Shown here piece after piece: positions 36,910 through 49,553 of a DNA stretch of 58,147 nucleotides. Numbering within the stretch: the stretch's first letter is position 1; each line of letters opens with the position of its first letter. The notes below the pieces were generated by a model. That model was not told the origin of the DNA, did not search any database, and saw only the letters and a list, made by a program, of their open reading frames with translations. The DNA comes from Haloplasma contractile (GTDB lineage: Bacteria > Bacillota_I > Bacilli_A > Haloplasmatales > Haloplasmataceae), in assembly GCA_016841945.1 (NCBI GenBank), contig JAENYC010000022.1, positions 1 through 58,147 of the forward strand, given 5' to 3'. Made by a program: the position numbers and the translations under genes.

Positions 36910-38106
36910 TTATCTTAAGCATCTTTCATGCTTTTTGTTTAATAATAGATTCATCATCTGCACTGGATTTTTAACTTTACTTAAAAAAATCATTGATGCG
37001 ATGATATAAGGTTTATATCCAGCTTGTTTATAAAGAGGTACGCGATAACGATCAAATACAGAAGCTGATACCTCACCTTCTTTACAACTTACGCCAGTGA
37101 TATCTGCTGGTAAACAATGTAGATATAATGCCTTACCATCTTTAGTAAGATTCATCATGTCTTCACTACATTCCCAATCTTTATGAAATGCATTTTGTAA
37201 GAGTAGTTCTTTTTCTAATTCTTTTATTTCATCAAACTTACCTTCACCATAAAGATTAGTTCTTTTTTCCATTGCATGAAATGGTGCCCAACTTTTTGGG
37301 TACACGATATCAGCATCTTGAAATGCTTCTTTCATCGAACTTGTCTTCACAAATTTACCGCCACTTACTAAAGCATTTTGTCTTGCAATGTCTTCTACCT
37401 CAGGCATTAAATCATATCCTTCAGGATGGGCTAAACTGACTTCCATCCCCATTCTAGTCATGAGTCCTATAACACCTTGAGGGACTGATAATGGTTTCCC
37501 ATATGATGGTGAATATGCCCAAGTCATCGCAATTTTTTTACCTTTTAAATGCTCTATGCCTCCATAATAATTAATTAAATGTGCCATATCAGCCATTGTT
37601 TGCGTAGGGTGGTCAATATCACATTGTAAATTAACAAGTGTCGGGCGTTGTTCTAAAACACCTTGTTCATATCCATCTCTAACAGCTTCTGATACTTGAC
37701 GCATATAGGCGTTTCCTTTTCCTATAAACATGTCATCTCTTATTCCTATGACATCAGCCATAAACGAAATCATATTAGCCGTTTCACGAACTGTTTCACC
37801 ATGTGCAATCTGTGATTTGCCTTCTTCAAGGTCTTGTACTTCTAAACCTAATAAATTACATGCACTAGAAAAACTAAATCGAGTTCTTGTAGAATTATCT
37901 CTAAACAATGAAATTCCAAGGCCACTATCAAATATTTTTGGAGAAATATTATTTTCCCTCATATTTCTTAATATTTCAGCTACTTTAAATACAGATTGAA
38001 TCTCATCATCTGTTTTTTCCCATGTCAATAAAAAGTCATCATTATACATATTTTGATGATTTAACTTACTTAACTCACGAACTAATTTTTTTAATTCATC
38101 CATCAT
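36910..38106 (-). CDS. ygeW: YgeW-family knotted carbamoyltransferase
   Basis: A 398-residue relative of ornithine/aspartate carbamoyltransferases. The carbamoyl-phosphate loop is FRDNSTRTRFSF, and the second-domain signatures are LQCDIDHPTQTMADMAHL and YLHCLPADI. YgeW proteins lack the ornithine and aspartate recognition motifs and occur in selenium-linked purine clusters. There they probably transfer a carbamoyl group from a ring fragment to phosphate, saving energy as carbamoyl phosphate. No carbamate kinase gene is visible in this window. ATG 38106 and 38103 both follow RBS GAGGTGA. It is the first gene of its operon. Confidence 0.93.
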   Translation of the reverse strand: MMDELKKLVRELSKLNHQNMYNDDFLLTWEKTDDEIQSVFKVAEILRNMRENNISPKIFDSGLGISLFRDNSTRTRFSFSSACNLLGLEVQDLEEGKSQIAHGETVRETANMISFMADVIGIRDDMFIGKGNAYMRQVSEAVRDGYEQGVLEQRPTLVNLQCDIDHPTQTMADMAHLINYYGGIEHLKGKKIAMTWAYSPSYGKPLSVPQGVIGLMTRMGMEVSLAHPEGYDLMPEVEDIARQNALVSGGKFVKTSSMKEAFQDADIVYPKSWAPFHAMEKRTNLYGEGKFDEIKELEKELLLQNAFHKDWECSEDMMNLTKDGKALYLHCLPADITGVSCKEGEVSASVFDRYRVPLYKQAGYKPYIIASMIFLSKVKNPVQMMNLLLNKKHERCLR

Positions 38107-38140
38107 TTCACCTCATATTTTATTCAACATTTCACATAAT

Positions 38141-38171
38141 TTGACTGATTAGTCAATCTAGTTATATTATA
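38141..38171 (-). promoter_or_regulatory. ygeW promoter -10 box and operator B
   Basis: Minus-strand TATAAT (38171-38166), seven bases, then GATTGACTAATCAGTCAA (38158-38141), an imperfect dyad. The motif and its spacing from the -10 box are the same as at the xdh operon (42084-42054). It would cover the transcription start, the usual place for repression. A further inverted repeat (ATTATGAT...ATCAT) overlaps the region just upstream. Confidence 0.75.
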
Positions 38172-38354
38172 CATGATAGAACATCATAATACTAGTTCAT
38201 CATATAATTTTTTATAAAATGAGGCGATAGAAGTTTGAACTCATGTTATATGCGTCTTCTATAAGTTTTCATCATGATAAAATACCTAAACTTGTATAAC
38301 CACTTCCCTTTCTGTGTTTAATCTTTCATATATACCTGTTAATTAAGAATGTAG
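38172..38354. other. Intergenic region between ygeW promoter and xdh terminator
   Basis: No ORF with an RBS is visible. ATAGAAG (38227-38233) and CTTCTAT (38256-38262) form an inverted repeat, overlapped by a competing pair ATGAG/CTCAT. I compared it by eye with the purine riboswitch core and found no match. It lies upstream of the proposed ygeW start point. Confidence 0.4.
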
Positions 38355-38387
38355 ACAAAAAAGAGAGAAGACAATTGCTCTTCTCTC
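38355..38387 (-). terminator. Terminator of the xdhABC operon
   Basis: GAGAGAAGA and TCTTCTCTC (38387-38379 with 38371-38363) form a perfect 9-bp stem followed on the minus strand by TTTTTTGT. It directly follows the FeS subunit gene and isolates this operon from ygeW. Confidence 0.92.
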
Positions 38388-38396
38388 ACTTTATTA

Positions 38397-38858
38397 TTAT
38401 TCATCTAAAGATTTTTTTACCGCATTAAATATCTTTTGATAACCTGTACAACGACAAAAATGACCAGATATTTCTCTCTTAATTTCTTCATCACTATATT
38501 TCTTTCCACTTTCAACAAGGGCAGTTGTTGTCATCACAAGTCCCGGTGTACAGTATCCACATTGTATAGCCCCCTCATCTACAAACGCTTGTTGAACTTT
38601 GGATAATTGACCATCTTTCTCAATACCTTCAATGGTTGTAATTTTTTTACCATCAGCCCACATAGCTAGATATATACATGAATTATAAGGCGTACCGTCA
38701 ATTAAAACTGTACAAGCACCACATTCACCGACTGAACAACCTTGTTTAACGCCTGTAAGATGAAGTCTATCCCTTAATACATCTAATAATGATTCTTTTA
38801 TATCAACTTCTATAGCATAGTGTTTATCATTCACATTTAAATTAATTTTTTTCATCAT
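38397..38858 (-). CDS. xdhC2: Xanthine dehydrogenase 2Fe-2S subunit
   Basis: A 153-residue iron-sulfur subunit, paralogous to the one at 15137. The plant-type cluster uses CSVGECGAC plus the Cys in TPYNSC. The helical cluster uses QCGYCTPG and HFCRCTGY. The reading frame extends to 38897, but GGCGGTGGT before ATG 38858 (or 38855) marks the start, overlapping the 3' end of the FAD gene. It carries electrons from the molybdenum site of XdhA to FAD on XdhB. The symbol marks the E. coli xdhC-type FeS subunit and should not be confused with the XdhC/CoxI chaperone at 28953. Confidence 0.9.
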   Translation of the reverse strand: MMKKINLNVNDKHYAIEVDIKESLLDVLRDRLHLTGVKQGCSVGECGACTVLIDGTPYNSCIYLAMWADGKKITTIEGIEKDGQLSKVQQAFVDEGAIQCGYCTPGLVMTTTALVESGKKYSDEEIKREISGHFCRCTGYQKIFNAVKKSLDE

Positions 38859-39729
38859 CTTTACCACCGCCTTTAAAAACAATTTCCTTAATTGCACGTT
38901 GTGTTAAAACATTAATAAGGTGTTGTCTATATGGTTTAGAACCTCGCCAGGAATTTCTTGGTCTTGCATTTGATAGGGCTAATTCACCTATTTTCTTTAT
39001 TGTTTCTTCTGAACATTCTTTTCCAACTGCATAATCTTCTGCCTTACTACATCTTACAGGTACTGGTGCACTAACACCTAATGCGATTCTTAAATCTTTA
39101 AATACTTCATCTTCTACCTGCCCTGTTACGGCAACGCTTAACATGGCAATATCCATGGCTTTTCGGTTACTAAATTTTATATATTTCCCTTTCATTTCGT
39201 GATAATTATCTTCTGTTATTAATATGTGGGTTAATATTTCACCTTGTAGTAACTTGACTTTCCCAGGACCTTCATAGAAATCTTGAATGGGTATCATTCT
39301 AACACCTTTTTTACTTTCTAATCGTAATATCGCATTTAATGTAAAAAGTGATGGTGCACTATCAGCTGAAACCGCTCCATTACAAATATTTCCACCAATA
39401 GTGGCAATATTTCTTATCTGTGGTCCTCCCATTGAGACACTGGCTTCTGCCAAGATAGAAATATATTGATTAATAATTTTATCTCTAAATAAAGTAGAAA
39501 AAGTTGTCATTGCACCAATTACAATGGTCCCATCTTCTTGTAATTTAACTTCATCTAAGTGATTAATCTTTCGAAGACTTAGTAGTTCCACATCTTCTAA
39601 TTTACCGTGATGAAGATGTATTAATACATCGGTTCCACCGGCAATCACTTTTAATTTAGGATTTTCATCATAATAAAGAATGGCTTCTTTTAATGTTTTT
39701 GGTTCTAATATATGATTTATACTGAACAA
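38842..39729 (-). CDS. xdhB: Xanthine dehydrogenase FAD subunit
   Basis: A 295-residue flavoprotein subunit. KVIAGGTDVLIHLHHGK and GGPQIRNIATIGGNICNGAVS are the FAD-binding loops, followed by a CO-dehydrogenase flavoprotein C-terminal domain. Translation starts at TTG 39729, seven bases after the strong RBS AGGGGGG, which overlaps the XdhA stop codon. Order A-B-C and tight spacing match bacterial xanthine dehydrogenase operons. It passes electrons to NAD+ or a ferredoxin. The YumC-type reductase at 52932 is one possible partner, but only as speculation. Confidence 0.92.
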   Translation of the reverse strand: MFSINHILEPKTLKEAILYYDENPKLKVIAGGTDVLIHLHHGKLEDVELLSLRKINHLDEVKLQEDGTIVIGAMTTFSTLFRDKIINQYISILAEASVSMGGPQIRNIATIGGNICNGAVSADSAPSLFTLNAILRLESKKGVRMIPIQDFYEGPGKVKLLQGEILTHILITEDNYHEMKGKYIKFSNRKAMDIAMLSVAVTGQVEDEVFKDLRIALGVSAPVPVRCSKAEDYAVGKECSEETIKKIGELALSNARPRNSWRGSKPYRQHLINVLTQRAIKEIVFKGGGKDDEKN

Positions 39730-39740
39730 GTTTATCCCCC

Positions 39741-42032
39741 CTAAAGTAATCCTTCATCTTTAAATTTTTCAAAGACAGCTTGTGGATTCATTGGTAGTTT
39801 ATTAAATTGAACACCCGTTGCATCTAACACCGCATTTCTAATCGCTGGTGCTGGAGATATAGCCGGATTTTCGCCAATTGATTTTTGACCGAAGGAACCT
39901 GTTGGTTCATATGTCTCTACAAATCCAACACCAATCTTTGGTGTATCTAAAATGGTTTGTAGCTTGTAGTCAAGTAAATTATGATTCAGTGGTCTTCCTG
40001 TTTTTTCATCAAACATTAATTTTTCTGATAAAGCATAACCAAGTGCCATGCTCACGCCACCATGTACTTGCCCTTCTGCTAGGCTAGGATTGATAATGGT
40101 TCCGGAATCATGAACATTATATATTTCAAGTACTTCAATCTTACCTGTGACCATATCCACTAAAACCTCAGCAAATGTCACACCATAAGCAACTGCATTG
40201 GTTCTAATATTTTCTGAAGTATCACTTTTAATAGGTTCTGCATGTATTCTATCATAATAGGATAACATCGCAATTTCTTCTAATGAACAAAGGGGTGTTC
40301 CTAAATCTTTTTCAACTATTTGTTTATCAACAATATCTAAGTCTTCCACCTTAAGTCCCGTTTTACGACTGGCTATTTTTAAGACTTTATCTTTTACTTC
40401 TAATGCCGCTTTTTTTACAGCGGCACCTGAAACATAAGTTTGTCTTGAAGCATATGCACCTGTATCAAAAGGGGCAATATCCGTATCTTGAGTCGATATA
40501 ACTCGTACCATATCCATAGAAATACCGAGTACTTCTGCAGCCATTTGTGCAAAAGCGGTATCACTTCCTTGACCTATTTCAGTGGCTCCCACTTGTAATT
40601 GAATTGAACCATCTTGGTTCATCACAATTCTAGCGCCAGCGAGTTCTAATCCAACGGGGTGGGTACCAGAAAAATAACTGAAACAAGCCATCCCAAGTCC
40701 TCTTCTTTTCTCACCTGTTTGATTTTCATAACTTTTCTTCTTTTCATCCCACTTAATCAGTTCTTTTCCTTTTTGAATACATTCTGGGATACCAAAAGAC
40801 CGTACCTTTATTTTAGATAATGGGTCAACATGTCCTAAACTAATTAAATTACGTTTCCTAAATTCAATAGGGTTTAGCTTTAACTTCTTACATATATCAT
40901 CTAAATGACTTTCTAAAGCAAAACAAATCTGTGGCACACCATAAGCACGCATTGCGCCGGCTGTTGGTAAGTTCGTATAAACTGTCTTAGGCTCAACCTT
41001 CACAGAATTAAAATGATATAGCGGTCTAAACTTACTGCTGGCACTCATAATAATTGAATGTCCATGAGAAGCATACGCACCATTATTAGAAAAAGCTTTT
41101 ATATGAATGGCTTTTAGACGATTATCTTTTGAGAGCGCTGTTTTCATATAAAACTTAATCGCATGACGAGTTCTTGTCCCAATAAAACATTCTTCTCTAG
41201 ATAGTTGATAACGAACTGGTTTCCCATTGACTGAAAGTGTCATGGCAGCCGTTAAAGGTTCAATCACAACATCTTGTTTATTACCAAAACCTCCACCAAT
41301 ATAGGGTTTAATCACTCTGACCTTTCCCCATGATAGTCCTAGGGCTTGGCTCACCACGCGTCTTACAATATGAGGAATTTGTGTTGAAGTCACAATGACA
41401 ATCCGGCCATCTGTATCCTTATATGCATAAGCCGTGTGATTTTCAAGATGACAATGCTGTACAATACTTGTTTCATAAACACCTTCCATGATATAGTCAG
41501 CTTGTTGAAAATCCTGCTCAATATCTCCAAAAGCCTGTCCAAAAGAACTAATAATATTATCTTTTTTTTCATCATGAATTGTAGGTGCATCAGGCTTTAT
41601 TGCTTCCTCAGCATCCAATACATGGGGTAAGACCTCATATTCTACCTCAATGAGCTTTATTGCTTTCTCTGCAGTTAAATGATCTGTTGCTACAACCGCA
41701 GCGATACTATCCCCTACATAACGTGCTTTATCCGTTAATATTAATCTATCGGCAACATCACGATGATTTGGATCTAATGACCAGGGATGCCCTGCAGTTG
41801 CAAACTTAATCTTTGGTAAATCTTCATGCGTTATCACAGCTTCTACCCCTTCTAATGACTTTGCTTTGCTCACATCTATGTGTTTGATTAAGGCATGTGC
41901 ATGTGGACTTCTTAATACTTTCCCAACTAACATCTCTCTTTCAAAAAAATCATCAGTATATTTTGCTTTACCTGTCACCTTACTGACAGCATCGAGTCTA
42001 CTCGCCCGATTACCGATTACTTTCTCCTTCAT
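39741..42032 (-). CDS. xdhA: Xanthine dehydrogenase molybdenum subunit
   Basis: A 763-residue complete Mo-binding subunit, giving the cluster its third hydroxylase. Motifs are IGGGFGNKQD, AMRAYGVPQI, ATEIGQGSDTAF, YASRQTYVSG and the closing FGQKSIGENPAISPAPAI with the presumed active-site Glu. Residues 1 to about 150 are the N-terminal alpha/beta hammerhead domain (KVTGKAKYTDD, KARYVGDSIAAVVA). RBS GGGGAGG precedes ATG 42032. It is the first gene of a three-gene operon under the shared operator. Xanthine or hypoxanthine is the likely substrate, and YqeB/YqeC linkage suggests it may also use selenium. Confidence 0.92.
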   Translation of the reverse strand: MKEKVIGNRASRLDAVSKVTGKAKYTDDFFEREMLVGKVLRSPHAHALIKHIDVSKAKSLEGVEAVITHEDLPKIKFATAGHPWSLDPNHRDVADRLILTDKARYVGDSIAAVVATDHLTAEKAIKLIEVEYEVLPHVLDAEEAIKPDAPTIHDEKKDNIISSFGQAFGDIEQDFQQADYIMEGVYETSIVQHCHLENHTAYAYKDTDGRIVIVTSTQIPHIVRRVVSQALGLSWGKVRVIKPYIGGGFGNKQDVVIEPLTAAMTLSVNGKPVRYQLSREECFIGTRTRHAIKFYMKTALSKDNRLKAIHIKAFSNNGAYASHGHSIIMSASSKFRPLYHFNSVKVEPKTVYTNLPTAGAMRAYGVPQICFALESHLDDICKKLKLNPIEFRKRNLISLGHVDPLSKIKVRSFGIPECIQKGKELIKWDEKKKSYENQTGEKRRGLGMACFSYFSGTHPVGLELAGARIVMNQDGSIQLQVGATEIGQGSDTAFAQMAAEVLGISMDMVRVISTQDTDIAPFDTGAYASRQTYVSGAAVKKAALEVKDKVLKIASRKTGLKVEDLDIVDKQIVEKDLGTPLCSLEEIAMLSYYDRIHAEPIKSDTSENIRTNAVAYGVTFAEVLVDMVTGKIEVLEIYNVHDSGTIINPSLAEGQVHGGVSMALGYALSEKLMFDEKTGRPLNHNLLDYKLQTILDTPKIGVGFVETYEPTGSFGQKSIGENPAISPAPAIRNAVLDATGVQFNKLPMNPQAVFEKFKDEGLL

Positions 42033-44780: not shown

Positions 44781-44823
44781 AAAAGTACTCTATTGATATT
44801 ATACCTATAGAGTACTTTTTTTT
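44781..44823. terminator. Bidirectional terminator
   Basis: AAAAGTACTCTAT and ATAGAGTACTTTT pair perfectly, followed by a T run on the plus strand and flanked by A residues. It serves the small plus-strand gene and TsaD on the minus strand. Confidence 0.9.
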
Positions 44824-45829
44824 ATATATCTATACTTGCTTTTCCATTTAAACTTAAATCATCTCTTTGTCCCTTTAGATAAGCAAATGTACCCGCTACA
44901 CCAATCATAGCGGCATTATCGGTACAAAATTTTAATGGTGGTATGATTAATTTTATACCAGGATAAGCTTCCATTTCTTCTTTTAGACGTTGTCTTAATC
45001 CACTATTTGCGGCAACACCACCTGCTAGAAGCAATTGTTTTATTGGATACTCTTTTATGGCTTTCAATGTTTTACCAACTAAAATATCTACAACACTTTC
45101 TTGAAAACTTCTAGCTAAATTTTCTATGTGAATGGTTTCATTTCGTTGTTTTGTATTGTGGACTAAATTTATCACAGATGATTTTAAACCTGAAAAACTA
45201 AAATCATAATTATCTTGGTCTAACATCACCCGTGGTAGCTGATATACATCTTTTCCATTCTTTGCACGCTTATCTATTTCTGGGCCACCAGGATAAGATA
45301 AATGGCAAACTCGTGCTACTTTATCATAAGCCTCACCAACAGCATCATCCCTCGTCTGTCCAATGGTTTCAAATTGAAAATGGTCGTTCATATAGAGAAG
45401 TTCTGTATGTCCACCTGAGACAACGAGTGCAAGTAAAGGAAATTCTAAATCAGAAACCAAATGATTGGCATAGATATGTCCTGCGATATGATGAACACCA
45501 ATAATTGGTAAATGATTGGCATAGGCAAAAGCTTTTGCCGCATTGATTCCAATAAGCAAAGACCCGATTAAACCCGGTCCTTTTGTCACTGCAATACAAG
45601 TTAATTCTTTTATCTGTATATTGGCTTCTTTTATTGCTTCATCCAGTACAAAGGTAATATTTTCAACATGATGTCTACTGGCAACCTCTGGTACGACGCC
45701 ACCAAATCGTTTGTGAATATCGATTTGAGATGAAACAATATTGGATAACACTTCTTTTCCATTTTTTATGATGGCAACACTTGTTTCATCACAACTTGAT
45801 TCAACAGCTAATACAATGATTTTTTTCAT
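44822..45829 (-). CDS. tsaD: tRNA N6-adenosine threonylcarbamoyltransferase
   Basis: TsaD transfers threonylcarbamoyl to A37 of ANN-decoding tRNAs. It has the ASKHA-fold start [12 protein letters not shown], the metal site [22 protein letters not shown] and [12 protein letters not shown] near the end. Its 335 residues are standard. Its partners TsaB and TsaE are at 48473 and 49071, only a few kb away but in a different transcription unit. It starts one base after the stop of the pullulanase-like gene, so the two are co-transcribed. Confidence 0.95.
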
Positions 45830-45830
45830 C

Positions 45831-47906
45831 TTATTTTCTTCTTTTTCTTCGTTTTAATAGCCAGTATAACCCTAATGCACCTAAGGCATATCCTGCATAT
45901 TTTTTATAATCAGGTTTAGCTTTTTCTATAACCGTCACTTCATTGGCAAATTTTTCATTCGAATATAGTATCATTGAAGTTAATTCAGGAACCACAATTT
46001 CATTACCTGTCATTTTACTTATAATAGATGTCCCAGCTTTTTCTTGGTCCACAATGATATTCCAAACACCAAAGTGAGGAAGCTTAAATTTCACTTCGCT
46101 ACTATTGGCATTGAATAAAACGACGATATCAGCATAACTATCCCCATTGGCTGAATCCGTAATATTATAAGCAATGGTGTTTGTGATTGGTGCATCTAAA
46201 AACTTAAGATGTTTTTGAATCATTTCAGTGCTCGTCATTCTAAAGGCTGGATGTTTCTTTCTTAACTCAATTAACCCTCGATAGTATTCAAATAATTCTA
46301 TATGGTCATATTTACTATGCCATACAATTTGATTTATCATATCTGGTGATTTATAACTGTTTTCATCACCATTTTTTGTTCTTAACATTTCCTCTCCAGC
46401 AAATAAGAAAGGAATCCCTTGACTGGTCAGTACGATGGTATTAGCCATCTTAGCCATTTTTATTCGAGTTGTCATATCTAAGCCTTCTGTTGTTTCAACA
46501 ATTTTATCATATAAACATAAATGATTATGACACGATACAAAATTAACACTTTGATTGGGTTGAGTTGCCCATGGTATTTTAGAAAAAATGACTTTTTCAT
46601 AATTGATTTGTGGATGATCGATTGCGCCAACAATAGAAAATTTAACCGTTTCTTCTAAACCAATTCCACCATTAACAAACCCGGGTTGTTTCCTATATAA
46701 TACCTGTCCTCTAACGCCATCGCGACAATCATCGTTAAACGTGGCGATTCTAGACATCCTAGTCATATTCTTTTTAAGGGCGCGTTTTTGTATTGGAAGT
46801 GGTGATTCATCAGCTGTAAACCCTTCTCCATATATAATAATAGTTGGGTCAATTTTATCAAGTGCTAGACGAATCTCATTCATCGTTTCGATATCATGAA
46901 GTCCCATTAAGTTAAAACAAAATCCATCAATATGATATTCTTTCGCTAAATAAGTTACTGAATCAATGATATATTTTCTTACCATTTTTCGCTCTGATGC
47001 AATTTCATTTCCACTAAGTGAACCGTTAGCAAATGTCTCCTCATCTTCATTCTGCCGATAAAAATAATGAGGAAATGTTTTATATAATGAAGATTCTTTA
47101 TTTAAAGCCGTATGATTATAACACACATCCATAATCACTCGAATCTGACTTCGATGCATGGCTTGAACTAGGGTTTTAAATTCTTTCATTCTAATCACAC
47201 CATCAATTGGATTAGTCGAATAAGAACCTTCTATACAGTTAAAATTCAAAGGATTGTATCCCCAATTGTATTGTGGTTTATCTAGTTTAGATTCATCAAT
47301 CGCTTGAAAATCAAAAACAGGTTGCAAGTGAACATGTGTAACACCTAGTTCAATCAAATGGTCTAATCCAGTTGTTAACCCTTCAGGACTTCTTGTATTA
47401 TGTTGGGCAAGTCCTAAAAATTTTCCTGGATGCTGAACATTTGCGGTTTTATGAATGGTTAAATCCCTAATGTGTGCCTCATATATAATCGAATCAGTTG
47501 AACTGTTTAAATGAGGTTTTACATCCTCTAAAAACCCTTTAGGATTTGTTTCTTCTAAATCAACAACCATTCCTCTTTCACCATTTACACCACATGCTTT
47601 TGCATAAATATCAACGGTTTCATACTTTTCATTTTGAAATTCAATTTCATAAGTATAAAAAACACCATGTAAATCTTCTTCAATTTCAATATACCATGTC
47701 CCTTTAACATCTTTCCCCATTTTTATCTTATCATATGGTTTACTTTTATAACCTTTATCATATAAAAATAACGTGACTTTCTTCGCAAATGGACTCCATA
47801 CTCTAAAAGACGTTTTTTCTTTAGAATATACAGCTCCTAAATCACTACCATCATAATAATATTGTTCATTAAACGCCTCTGTTTCAAAACTTTTTATATC
47901 AACCAT
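45831..47906 (-). CDS. Pullulanase-like GH13 protein lacking catalytic Asp residues, C-terminal membrane anchor
   Basis: A 691-residue protein with the type I pullulanase layout: an N-terminal CBM48-like sandwich (about 20-125), YNWGYNP and a GH13 barrel. Region I is intact (DVCYNHT). Region II, normally GFRFDLMG, reads [11 protein letters not shown]: the arginine is Cys330 and the nucleophile position is Asn332. Region III keeps Glu361 (YGEGF). Region IV, normally HDN, reads CHNHLCL with Asn461. Two of three catalytic acids are therefore absent and hydrolysis is unlikely. No signal peptide is seen. The last 25 residues form a hydrophobic helix ([12 protein letters not shown]) plus KRRKRRK, so it should be anchored by its tail. 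Possibly a glycogen-binding pseudoenzyme. Confidence 0.85.
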
Positions 47907-48023
47907 TTTTTCACCTACTTAATATATTCATCGCATAATACTCTATATTAATAATATTACACAAAAAAATCTTTTTTTTCAATTTAAAAGTAAATTTTTT
48001 AATAAATACTAATAAAAATTTGT

Positions 48024-48476
48024 TTAAATGATATCTAACTTCATTAAATATGCATCTTCCCCGTCTTGATAATATCTTTTTCTCTTACAAACGATTATAA
48101 ATCCATGTTTTTTATAAAACTCTATCGCAACTCTATTTGAGACCCGTACTTCTAATGTAATATTTATACATCTTTTTTCATTGACATATTGAATAATAAA
48201 ATTCATGAGTAAATCTCCATATCCTAATCCCTGATATGCATCACTTACCGCAATGGTTGTTATTTGTACCTTTTCATCTATCACCCATAAACCAACATAT
48301 CCGATAATCGCTTGATTTAATACCAGTTTAAAATACTGACTATAAGGATGATGTAAATAATCAGAAAGGTATACATCAAGTGTATAAGGATTTTGAAACA
48401 CCTTGTTTTCAATTTCCATAATTTCATAAAAATCATTCAAATCTTCTATTCTTCTCACAACAGGTAAGTTTTTCAT
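48024..48476 (-). CDS. rimI: Ribosomal-protein-alanine N-acetyltransferase RimI
   Basis: A 150-residue GNAT protein. The acetyl-CoA site is ITTIAVSDAYQGLGYGDLLM, followed by LEVRVSNRVAIEFYKKHGF, the RimI signature. Gene order tsaE-tsaB-rimI is very widely conserved, which supports the name. The ATG overlaps the tsaB TGA. It acetylates the N-terminus of ribosomal protein S18 in E. coli; other targets are possible. Confidence 0.92.
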   Translation of the reverse strand: MKNLPVVRRIEDLNDFYEIMEIENKVFQNPYTLDVYLSDYLHHPYSQYFKLVLNQAIIGYVGLWVIDEKVQITTIAVSDAYQGLGYGDLLMNFIIQYVNEKRCINITLEVRVSNRVAIEFYKKHGFIIVCKRKRYYQDGEDAYLMKLDII

Positions 48477-49090
48477 CTTAGTTTCAGTTCTGCCTCCGGT
48501 AATCGTTTATAACTTGGTACGAAGGTATGGATATTTGAAACATTTTCAAAATCGAGGTTCATAATAAATTGAGGGTTATAATCAATTTTTTCAAAATCCA
48601 TTCCCACAAAACATATATCATCCTTCACTTTTTCTTTAATCTGTTTCACATAATCATCAAAGTGATAAAGTTTTTCATCAAAAACAGGCTTAAGTTTATG
48701 ATGCTTTACTTCATAAAGCGCAGAAAAAACATTACCACGTCTTGCATCAATTAATGGGACAATGTATTTAGCCTTATTCATAAATGAGGCACTCATTAGC
48801 TTTAAAGATGATATTTTTTTCAAAGGAATATTCAACGCATAACATAAGGTTTTAGCTACTGTAACCCCAATTCTTACGCCAGTATAACTACCTGGCCCTT
48901 CTGATACAATGATTTGTTTAATATTTACTATATCGACATCATTCCTTTTTAATAATTGATCAATATTAGGCATCAATTGAGAAGAATGATTACGCTTTAC
49001 GATTTTAAAAGTATGATCAACTACCTCTATTCCTTCTGATAAGATAATGACTAAACATTCTGTTGAAGTATCAATCAACAAGTTTTTCAT
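48473..49090 (-). CDS. tsaB: tRNA threonylcarbamoyladenosine biosynthesis protein TsaB
   Basis: A 205-residue ASKHA-fold partner of TsaD. It starts LLIDTSTECLVIILSEG and has the typical VSEGPGSYTGVRIGVTVAK motif and YIVPLIDARRGNVFSALYE. It lacks the TsaD metal site, as expected for the non-catalytic partner. It overlaps the tsaE 3' end by 20 bases and the rimI start by four. RBS GAGGTG lies inside tsaE. Confidence 0.93.
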   Translation of the reverse strand: MKNLLIDTSTECLVIILSEGIEVVDHTFKIVKRNHSSQLMPNIDQLLKRNDVDIVNIKQIIVSEGPGSYTGVRIGVTVAKTLCYALNIPLKKISSLKLMSASFMNKAKYIVPLIDARRGNVFSALYEVKHHKLKPVFDEKLYHFDDYVKQIKEKVKDDICFVGMDFEKIDYNPQFIMNLDFENVSNIHTFVPSYKRLPEAELKLR

Positions 49091-49553
49091 CTTTTAACAC
49101 CTCACATAATTGAATATATGGTTTACCAATTGGATAGAACTCAAATAATCGCTTTGTCTCACCTAATATCGTAATATCAATTTCAAGCCGTTCATTTGGC
49201 AATTGTGATTTAATGTGGGATGCCCACTCAATAATTGATACCCCATTTGAATAAAAATATTCATCGAATCCTAAATCTTCTAAATCATCTTCAATTCGAT
49301 AAACATCCATATGATAAAGAGGGTAAATCCCCTCATATTCTTTAATAATCGTAAATGTGGGACTATTAACTGTTTTTTTTATTTCTAAGGCTTCTGCGAT
49401 TCCTTTAGTAAAGGTTGTTTTTCCCGCACCTAAATCACCTTCAAGTGTTATCACTGCGCCTTTAAATAAATGCTTTCCTATTTTATTTGCTAGGACATTG
49501 GTTTGTTTTAATGTATTAACTTCTACTTGATATTTTTTCATATCATCATCCAT
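49071..49553 (-). CDS. tsaE: tRNA threonylcarbamoyladenosine biosynthesis ATPase TsaE
   Basis: A 160-residue P-loop ATPase of the t6A complex. The Walker A motif is LEGDLGAGKTTFTKG, followed by VNSPTFTIIKEY and YHMDVYRIED, all family signatures. Its late IEWASHI motif is also typical. Start 49553 or the in-frame ATG at 49541 are both possible; neither has a strong RBS. First gene of the tsaE-tsaB-rimI operon. Confidence 0.93.
   Translation of the reverse strand: MDDDMKKYQVEVNTLKQTNVLANKIGKHLFKGAVITLEGDLGAGKTTFTKGIAEALEIKKTVNSPTFTIIKEYEGIYPLYHMDVYRIEDDLEDLGFDEYFYSNGVSIIEWASHIKSQLPNERLEIDITILGETKRLFEFYPIGKPYIQLCEVLKDEKLVD

Follow-up and report, generated by a model that had tools for sequence, protein, structure and literature searches.

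A homologue of type I pullulanase, here called pulX, has very probably undergone a real and repeated conversion into a selected, non-catalytic protein within the Haloplasmataceae. The window (the whole stretch of DNA analysed, 58,147 nucleotides from Haloplasma contractile) carries one of the inactive copies. Because catalysis has been lost differently in each lineage, yet the sequence is strictly preserved, pulX probably has a job that does not involve cutting. For the specific role favoured here, that of a cytoplasmic, membrane-associated, non-catalytic adaptor for α-glucan or protein, we see about an even chance.

Active-site residues of pulX and its orthologues

The window protein matches TIGR02104 (type I pullulanase) over its full length with 761 bits, against a cut-off of 504.5, and its best match among solved structures is 6jeq (E=3e-178). 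Its domains follow the order CBM48, GH13 barrel and C-terminal all-beta domain (Table 1). The start codon is ATG, with AGGTGA 4 nt upstream, both read from the sequence. An earlier note on this DNA, made from the letters alone, had described an intact frame of 691 residues with a pullulanase fold in which region I and Glu361 persist. These statements hold, the fold by family match: besides Glu361, the protein keeps D260, N264 and H265 of region I as well as H460, and it has the YNWGYDP-type motif as YNWGYNP. An AlphaFold model built from a five-sequence alignment was unusable (pLDDT 34.8).

The GH13 catalytic triad consists of an Asp nucleophile, a Glu acid/base and an Asp stabiliser (PMC11046441). 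Region II of the window protein reads GFCFNLMG and region IV reads CHNHLCL, and with C330, N332, E361 and N461 the protein lacks the full set, triad and region II Arg, of an active GH13 retaining hydrolase. The replacement of Arg, Asp and Asp by Cys330, Asn332 and Asn461, the core of the earlier note, is confirmed, the expected residues being kept in 158 of 158 outside homologues; the first two indeed need only single-base changes (TGT from CGT, AAC from GAC). As a full list, the three real changes fall short, since W363F and N462H, at positions near-invariant in other homologues, had been overlooked. The window protein belongs by family match to the type I pullulanases and lacks the residues that define an active GH13 hydrolase. 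Sequencing error was rejected as the source of such changes, given that several positions are altered together and that the independent assemblies G002 and G007 share their set. TIGR02104, an equivalog model, places this inactive protein 257 bits over its cut-off, so that an annotation pipeline would label it as an active enzyme of that family.

Table 1. Positions of pulX, its parts and its neighbours in the window
Feature	Coordinates	Strand	Basis or remark
pulX, 691-aa type I pullulanase homologue, catalytically inactive by sequence	45831..47906	-	TIGR02104, CBM48, pulA all-beta, 6jeq
Shine-Dalgarno-like AGGTGA upstream of pulX ATG	47911..47916	-	read directly
CBM48, residues 23-102, unusually conserved in pulX clade	47601..47840	-	domain match
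GH13 barrel, residues 175-530 (approximate)	46317..47384	-	domain matches; alignment with active homologues
Pullulanase C-terminal all-beta domain, Pfam 563-623, unusually conserved	46038..46220	-	domain match
Codon 330 TGT (Cys), Arg outside pulX clade	46917..46919	-	R in 158/158 outside homologues
Codon 332 AAC (Asn), Asp nucleophile outside pulX clade	46911..46913	-	D in 158/158 outside homologues
Codon 361, Glu acid/base, kept in window pulX; His in G002/G007	46824..46826	-	orthologue alignment
Codon 363 Phe, Trp outside pulX clade	46818..46820	-	homologue alignment
Codons 461-462 Asn-His, Asp-Asn expected; transition-state stabiliser lost	46521..46526	-	read and alignment
C-terminal hydrophobic helix (15 aa) and KRRKRRK tail	45834..45899	-	helix of 12-15 aa and basic tail in 7/7 full-length orthologues
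tsaD (t6A synthesis), starts 1 nt past pulX stop	44822..45829	-	TIGR03723
rimI, directly upstream of pulX in 8/8 genomes	48024..48476	-	TIGR01575
tsaB, same gene run as pulX	48473..49090	-	TIGR03725
tsaE, same gene run as pulX	49071..49553	-	TIGR00150

Eight Haloplasmataceae genomes were compared, among them the window genome (G000, 3.43 Mb) and one of the same genus (G001); pulX orthologues occur in named records of Inordinaticella fortuita and in MAGs. Seven full-length pulX sequences, two of them close relatives, were available. The copy in G004 (L021 / L054:10065-10982(+)) is partial, the contig ending within pulX, and about ten residues are missing before E-x-ASER (the FxNGSGxGN loop). 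In the tree, pulX forms one clade (support 100/99) whose inner branches are only partly resolved. Five of the seven full-length proteins, that is, the window copy and four of the other six, are inactive by sequence, compared with none of the 158 other homologues of the class. The latter are distinct pullulanase homologues, 91 at first and more in an enlarged set, all drawn from within the class, and every one keeps R330, D332, E361, W363, H460 and D461. Set against the first 91, loss of the catalytic set in the pulX clade gives a Fisher p of 3e-7, with kinship ignored.

The three changes singled out by the earlier note are not conserved among the orthologues; each lineage has its own set. The window copy carries R330C, D332N, W363F and D461N, that of G003 W363S and D461N, that of G005 D332H and W363S, and those of G002 and G007 R330C, E361H, W363I and D461E, whereas the active site is intact in G001 (79% identical to window pulX) and in G006 (64%). 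With an intact copy in G001 and a basal position for G006, the simplest account would be that catalysis was lost separately at least four times, by different substitutions. The R330C shared by the window copy and G002/G007 could be of common origin or convergent.

Selection and the shift of constraint

G002 and G007 share their inactive state, so nearly all divergence between their pulX genes postdates the loss. Between them pulX has a dN/dS of 0.041, lower than any of the other five genes compared at the locus (0.058-0.138 for rimI, tsaB, tsaE, pgi and the adjoining amidase gene). Moreover, constraint has been redistributed within the protein. In ordinary pullulanases (25 disjoint control pairs) conservation is higher in the barrel than in CBM48 and the C-terminal domain, with barrel/non-barrel log odds averaging -0.71 and reaching at most +0.13. 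In the pulX clade this is reversed, CBM48 and the C-terminal beta domain being more conserved than the barrel, and the three independent pairs have log odds of +0.50, +0.29 and +0.13 (p=0.0006 against the controls). Between G000 and G001, barrel divergence is alike in the active cytoplasmic paralogue (20%) and in pulX (22%), whereas non-barrel sites differ at 36% in the paralogue and at 17% in pulX. Among 62 near-invariant columns, nine are altered in the window copy, eight of those in catalytic motifs. Across the pulX copies, changes at these columns are concentrated in regions I-IV, and 42 of the 62, including N214, W215, D260, H265 and H460, are kept in every copy. Codon-model omega (0.029 for pulX, 0.035 for its barrel and 0.014 for CBM48 with the C-terminal beta domain; 0.028 for tsaE, 0.032 for rimI and 0.064 for tsaB) points the same way, but synonymous sites are saturated, so no conclusion rests on it. 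Since the reversal also appears in most comparisons with the intact G001 copy, the alignments suggest that the shift in function preceded the individual losses.

The earlier reading of pulX as a pseudoenzyme by sequence that is kept by selection is thus borne out by the low dN/dS, by synteny in all eight genomes and by the movement of constraint to the non-catalytic domains. The same note had held that orthologues with intact residues would speak for strain-specific decay. An intact orthologue does exist in the same genus, but strain-specific decay is rejected, given the independent losses elsewhere and the purifying selection.

Location, neighbourhood and possible role

A hydrophobic C-terminus with a basic end had been described as a gain and used as an argument for a non-catalytic role. 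It is indeed conserved, all seven full-length proteins ending in 12-15 uncharged residues followed by a net charge of +5 to +8, but it is common to intact and inactive orthologues and so lends such a role no support. As intact copies carry the tail and a C-terminal TM anchor is found in the sister clade too, it is probably an inherited, shortened anchor and not a gain tied to catalytic loss. No second copy of the tail was found in the window genome. A signal peptide is absent from all seven full-length proteins, so the body of pulX should be cytoplasmic. As the very basic end should stay inside, monotopic or peripheral contact with the membrane appears more likely than a classical span; with so short a helix and a tail unlikely to cross, any part that pulX plays at the membrane may be peripheral, or there may be none.

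By NCBIfam names, the gene run in the window is tsaE-tsaB-rimI-pulX-tsaD. The slot directly after rimI is held by pulX in each of the eight genomes, with tsaD next to it in five, and in most genomes its neighbours are t6A genes, not glucan genes. In G002 and G007, tsaD has been displaced from the position downstream of pulX (L050, L051), where genes for an alpha-glucosidase-like protein, an unclassified GH13-like protein and a glycogen/maltodextrin phosphorylase lie instead. The core common to all eight genomes comprises pulX, a phosphorylase and a GH13-like protein of 690-720 residues. The last has a partial PF00128 match only and no NCBIfam match, and lies beside the phosphorylase in most genomes (L050:4019-6097(-), L058:428-2572(+), L063:14499-16580(-), L064:1603-3711(-)). 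Canonical-type glgA and glgB were found only in G000, G001 and G006 among the eight. A second GH13 pseudoenzyme, GlgB-like, occurs in G002 (L126:1178-2914(-)), G007 (L128:1420-3144(-)) and G004 (L127:1642-3249(-)), genomes without canonical glgA. Its region II reads HIDGI(R/K)LNN or HVDGIRLNN (Asp to Asn), the region I and IV motifs are lost, the genes adjoin a hemZ-like gene, and dN/dS between G002 and G007 is 0.107. Elsewhere in the window (36910-42032), genes for xanthine dehydrogenase-like subunits (2Fe-2S, FAD, MoCo) lie beside one for a YgeW-like carbamoyltransferase (OTCace domains), an arrangement that resembles a purine-catabolism cluster.

In the model that we favour, pulX would be a paralogue of type I pullulanase peculiar to this clade, with a fixed place in the tsaE-tsaB-rimI-pulX-(tsaD) run of the Haloplasmataceae and an ancestry shared with secreted, C-terminally TM-anchored pullulanases. 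Without a signal peptide, and with its short helix and basic tail, the protein would probably lie in the cytoplasm, attached to the membrane from within. The function under selection would have shifted to surfaces away from the active site, those of CBM48 and the C-terminal beta domain, before catalysis went or while it did, whereupon hydrolysis became dispensable and could be lost at least four times through different substitutions. As an adaptor, pulX would hold α-glucan or maltodextrin, a partner protein, or both at the membrane in the service of the maltodextrin machinery (phosphorylase and GH13 enzymes); location, ligand and partner are what we infer. The eroding active-site pocket argues against glucan recognition at subsite -1. 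More broadly, and tentatively, the Haloplasmataceae may have recruited α-glucan enzymes as non-catalytic components: pulX at the membrane, a new kind of adaptor in which new function came first and repeated catalytic loss followed, joined in three genomes by the inactive GlgB, each kept by purifying selection and each present where no canonical glycogen synthase was found.

Other explanations have to be weighed against the adaptor. It could be argued that pulX is a dispensable gene in recent decay, its frame kept open by nothing more than its position ahead of the essential tsaD: tsaD follows the pulX stop so closely that nonsense mutations in pulX could be polar, and the G001 orthologue is intact. 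Polarity, however, preserves a frame and not amino acids, and dN/dS between inactive copies is 0.04; in G002 and G007, where tsaD does not follow, pulX is still the most constrained gene of the set, and constraint on the non-catalytic domains has increased rather than relaxed. We regard decay as very improbable. An altered enzyme with a rearranged or substrate-assisted mechanism is scarcely easier to accept, despite the retention in the window copy of Glu361, D260, H265, H460 and the YNWGY loop. Comparison of inactive copies shows no special conservation of the active-site region, and since the lineages lose different members of the triad, including the acid/base in G002 and G007, a common alternative mechanism is very unlikely.

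Two further possibilities grant pulX a non-catalytic role but of another kind, and both seem unlikely rather than far-fetched. If an active debranching enzyme could not do without pulX as its allosteric or scaffold partner, pulX would have a precedent in plant ISA2, which serves ISA1 (PMC12510319), and a candidate partner in the intact cytoplasmic pullulanase of the window genome (C30, L055). G002, G007 (and G004), however, keep pulX with no other type I pullulanase above the TIGR02104 cut-off, which speaks against an obligate partnership of this type, and the active pulX of G001 and G006 would have to partner itself. The chance that pulX is instead an ancillary subunit of a transporter or other membrane protein, its GH13 fold acting as a partner in folding or trafficking, is a shade smaller. 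Membrane-attached inactive GH13 proteins with such a role are known from animals (4F2hc and rBAT; PMC8537225), and pulX has many clade-specific invariant residues outside the active site (Y53, S55, K56, D59, K60, K62, H611, F612 and S649-K652 are clade-specific invariants), but no transporter gene is evident beside it in the compared loci and its domain is apparently cytosolic, not extracellular.

Significance and comparison with known systems

As a rule, pseudoenzymes come into view after a single ancient loss, whereas at the pulX locus intact orthologues stand beside several that were inactivated in different ways. Because these occupy the same place with the same architecture, the order of events (new role, then loss) is directly testable, and if the new role did come first, pulX would be a natural replicate series for the origin of pseudoenzymes. 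The case also illustrates that family models annotate such inactive proteins as active pullulanases with high confidence. No described inactive bacterial pullulanase turned up in a search of the literature; this is weak evidence, as most subscription papers lay outside the search's coverage.

The type I pullulanases (TIGR02104; GH13_14) share with the window protein the order of CBM48, barrel and all-beta domain over the full length (6jeq; 2e8y, AmyX) as well as YNWGY, D260, N264, H265, Glu361 and H460. Unlike them, the window protein lacks the Arg, the nucleophile Asp, Trp363 and the stabiliser Asp, and pulX has a C-terminal hydrophobic helix and basic tail. Its nearest relatives outside the clade, at 46-52% identity, are secreted, TM-anchored pullulanases from this family and neighbouring ones (L016, L017, L039, L040), which likewise end in a hydrophobic helix followed by basic residues. 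These differ in having a signal peptide, extra N-terminal domains, an intact active site and, mostly, a C-terminal span of 21-23 residues in place of 12-15. Plant ISA2 (isoamylase, GH13_11) is, like pulX, a debranching-enzyme homologue that selection has preserved despite the loss of catalysis (PMC12510319); however, ISA2 reflects one ancient loss and has ISA1 as partner, whereas pulX lost catalysis several times in different ways, carries a tail and lacks an obligate partner enzyme. The animal proteins 4F2hc and rBAT (SLC3) are membrane-attached, with a GH13 fold and a non-enzymatic role (PMC8537225), but they belong to another GH13 branch and, unlike pulX, combine one TM domain with an ectodomain and a transporter partner. 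Thus, pulX resembles ISA2 and 4F2hc/rBAT as an inactive GH13 protein that has been kept, and belongs to neither.
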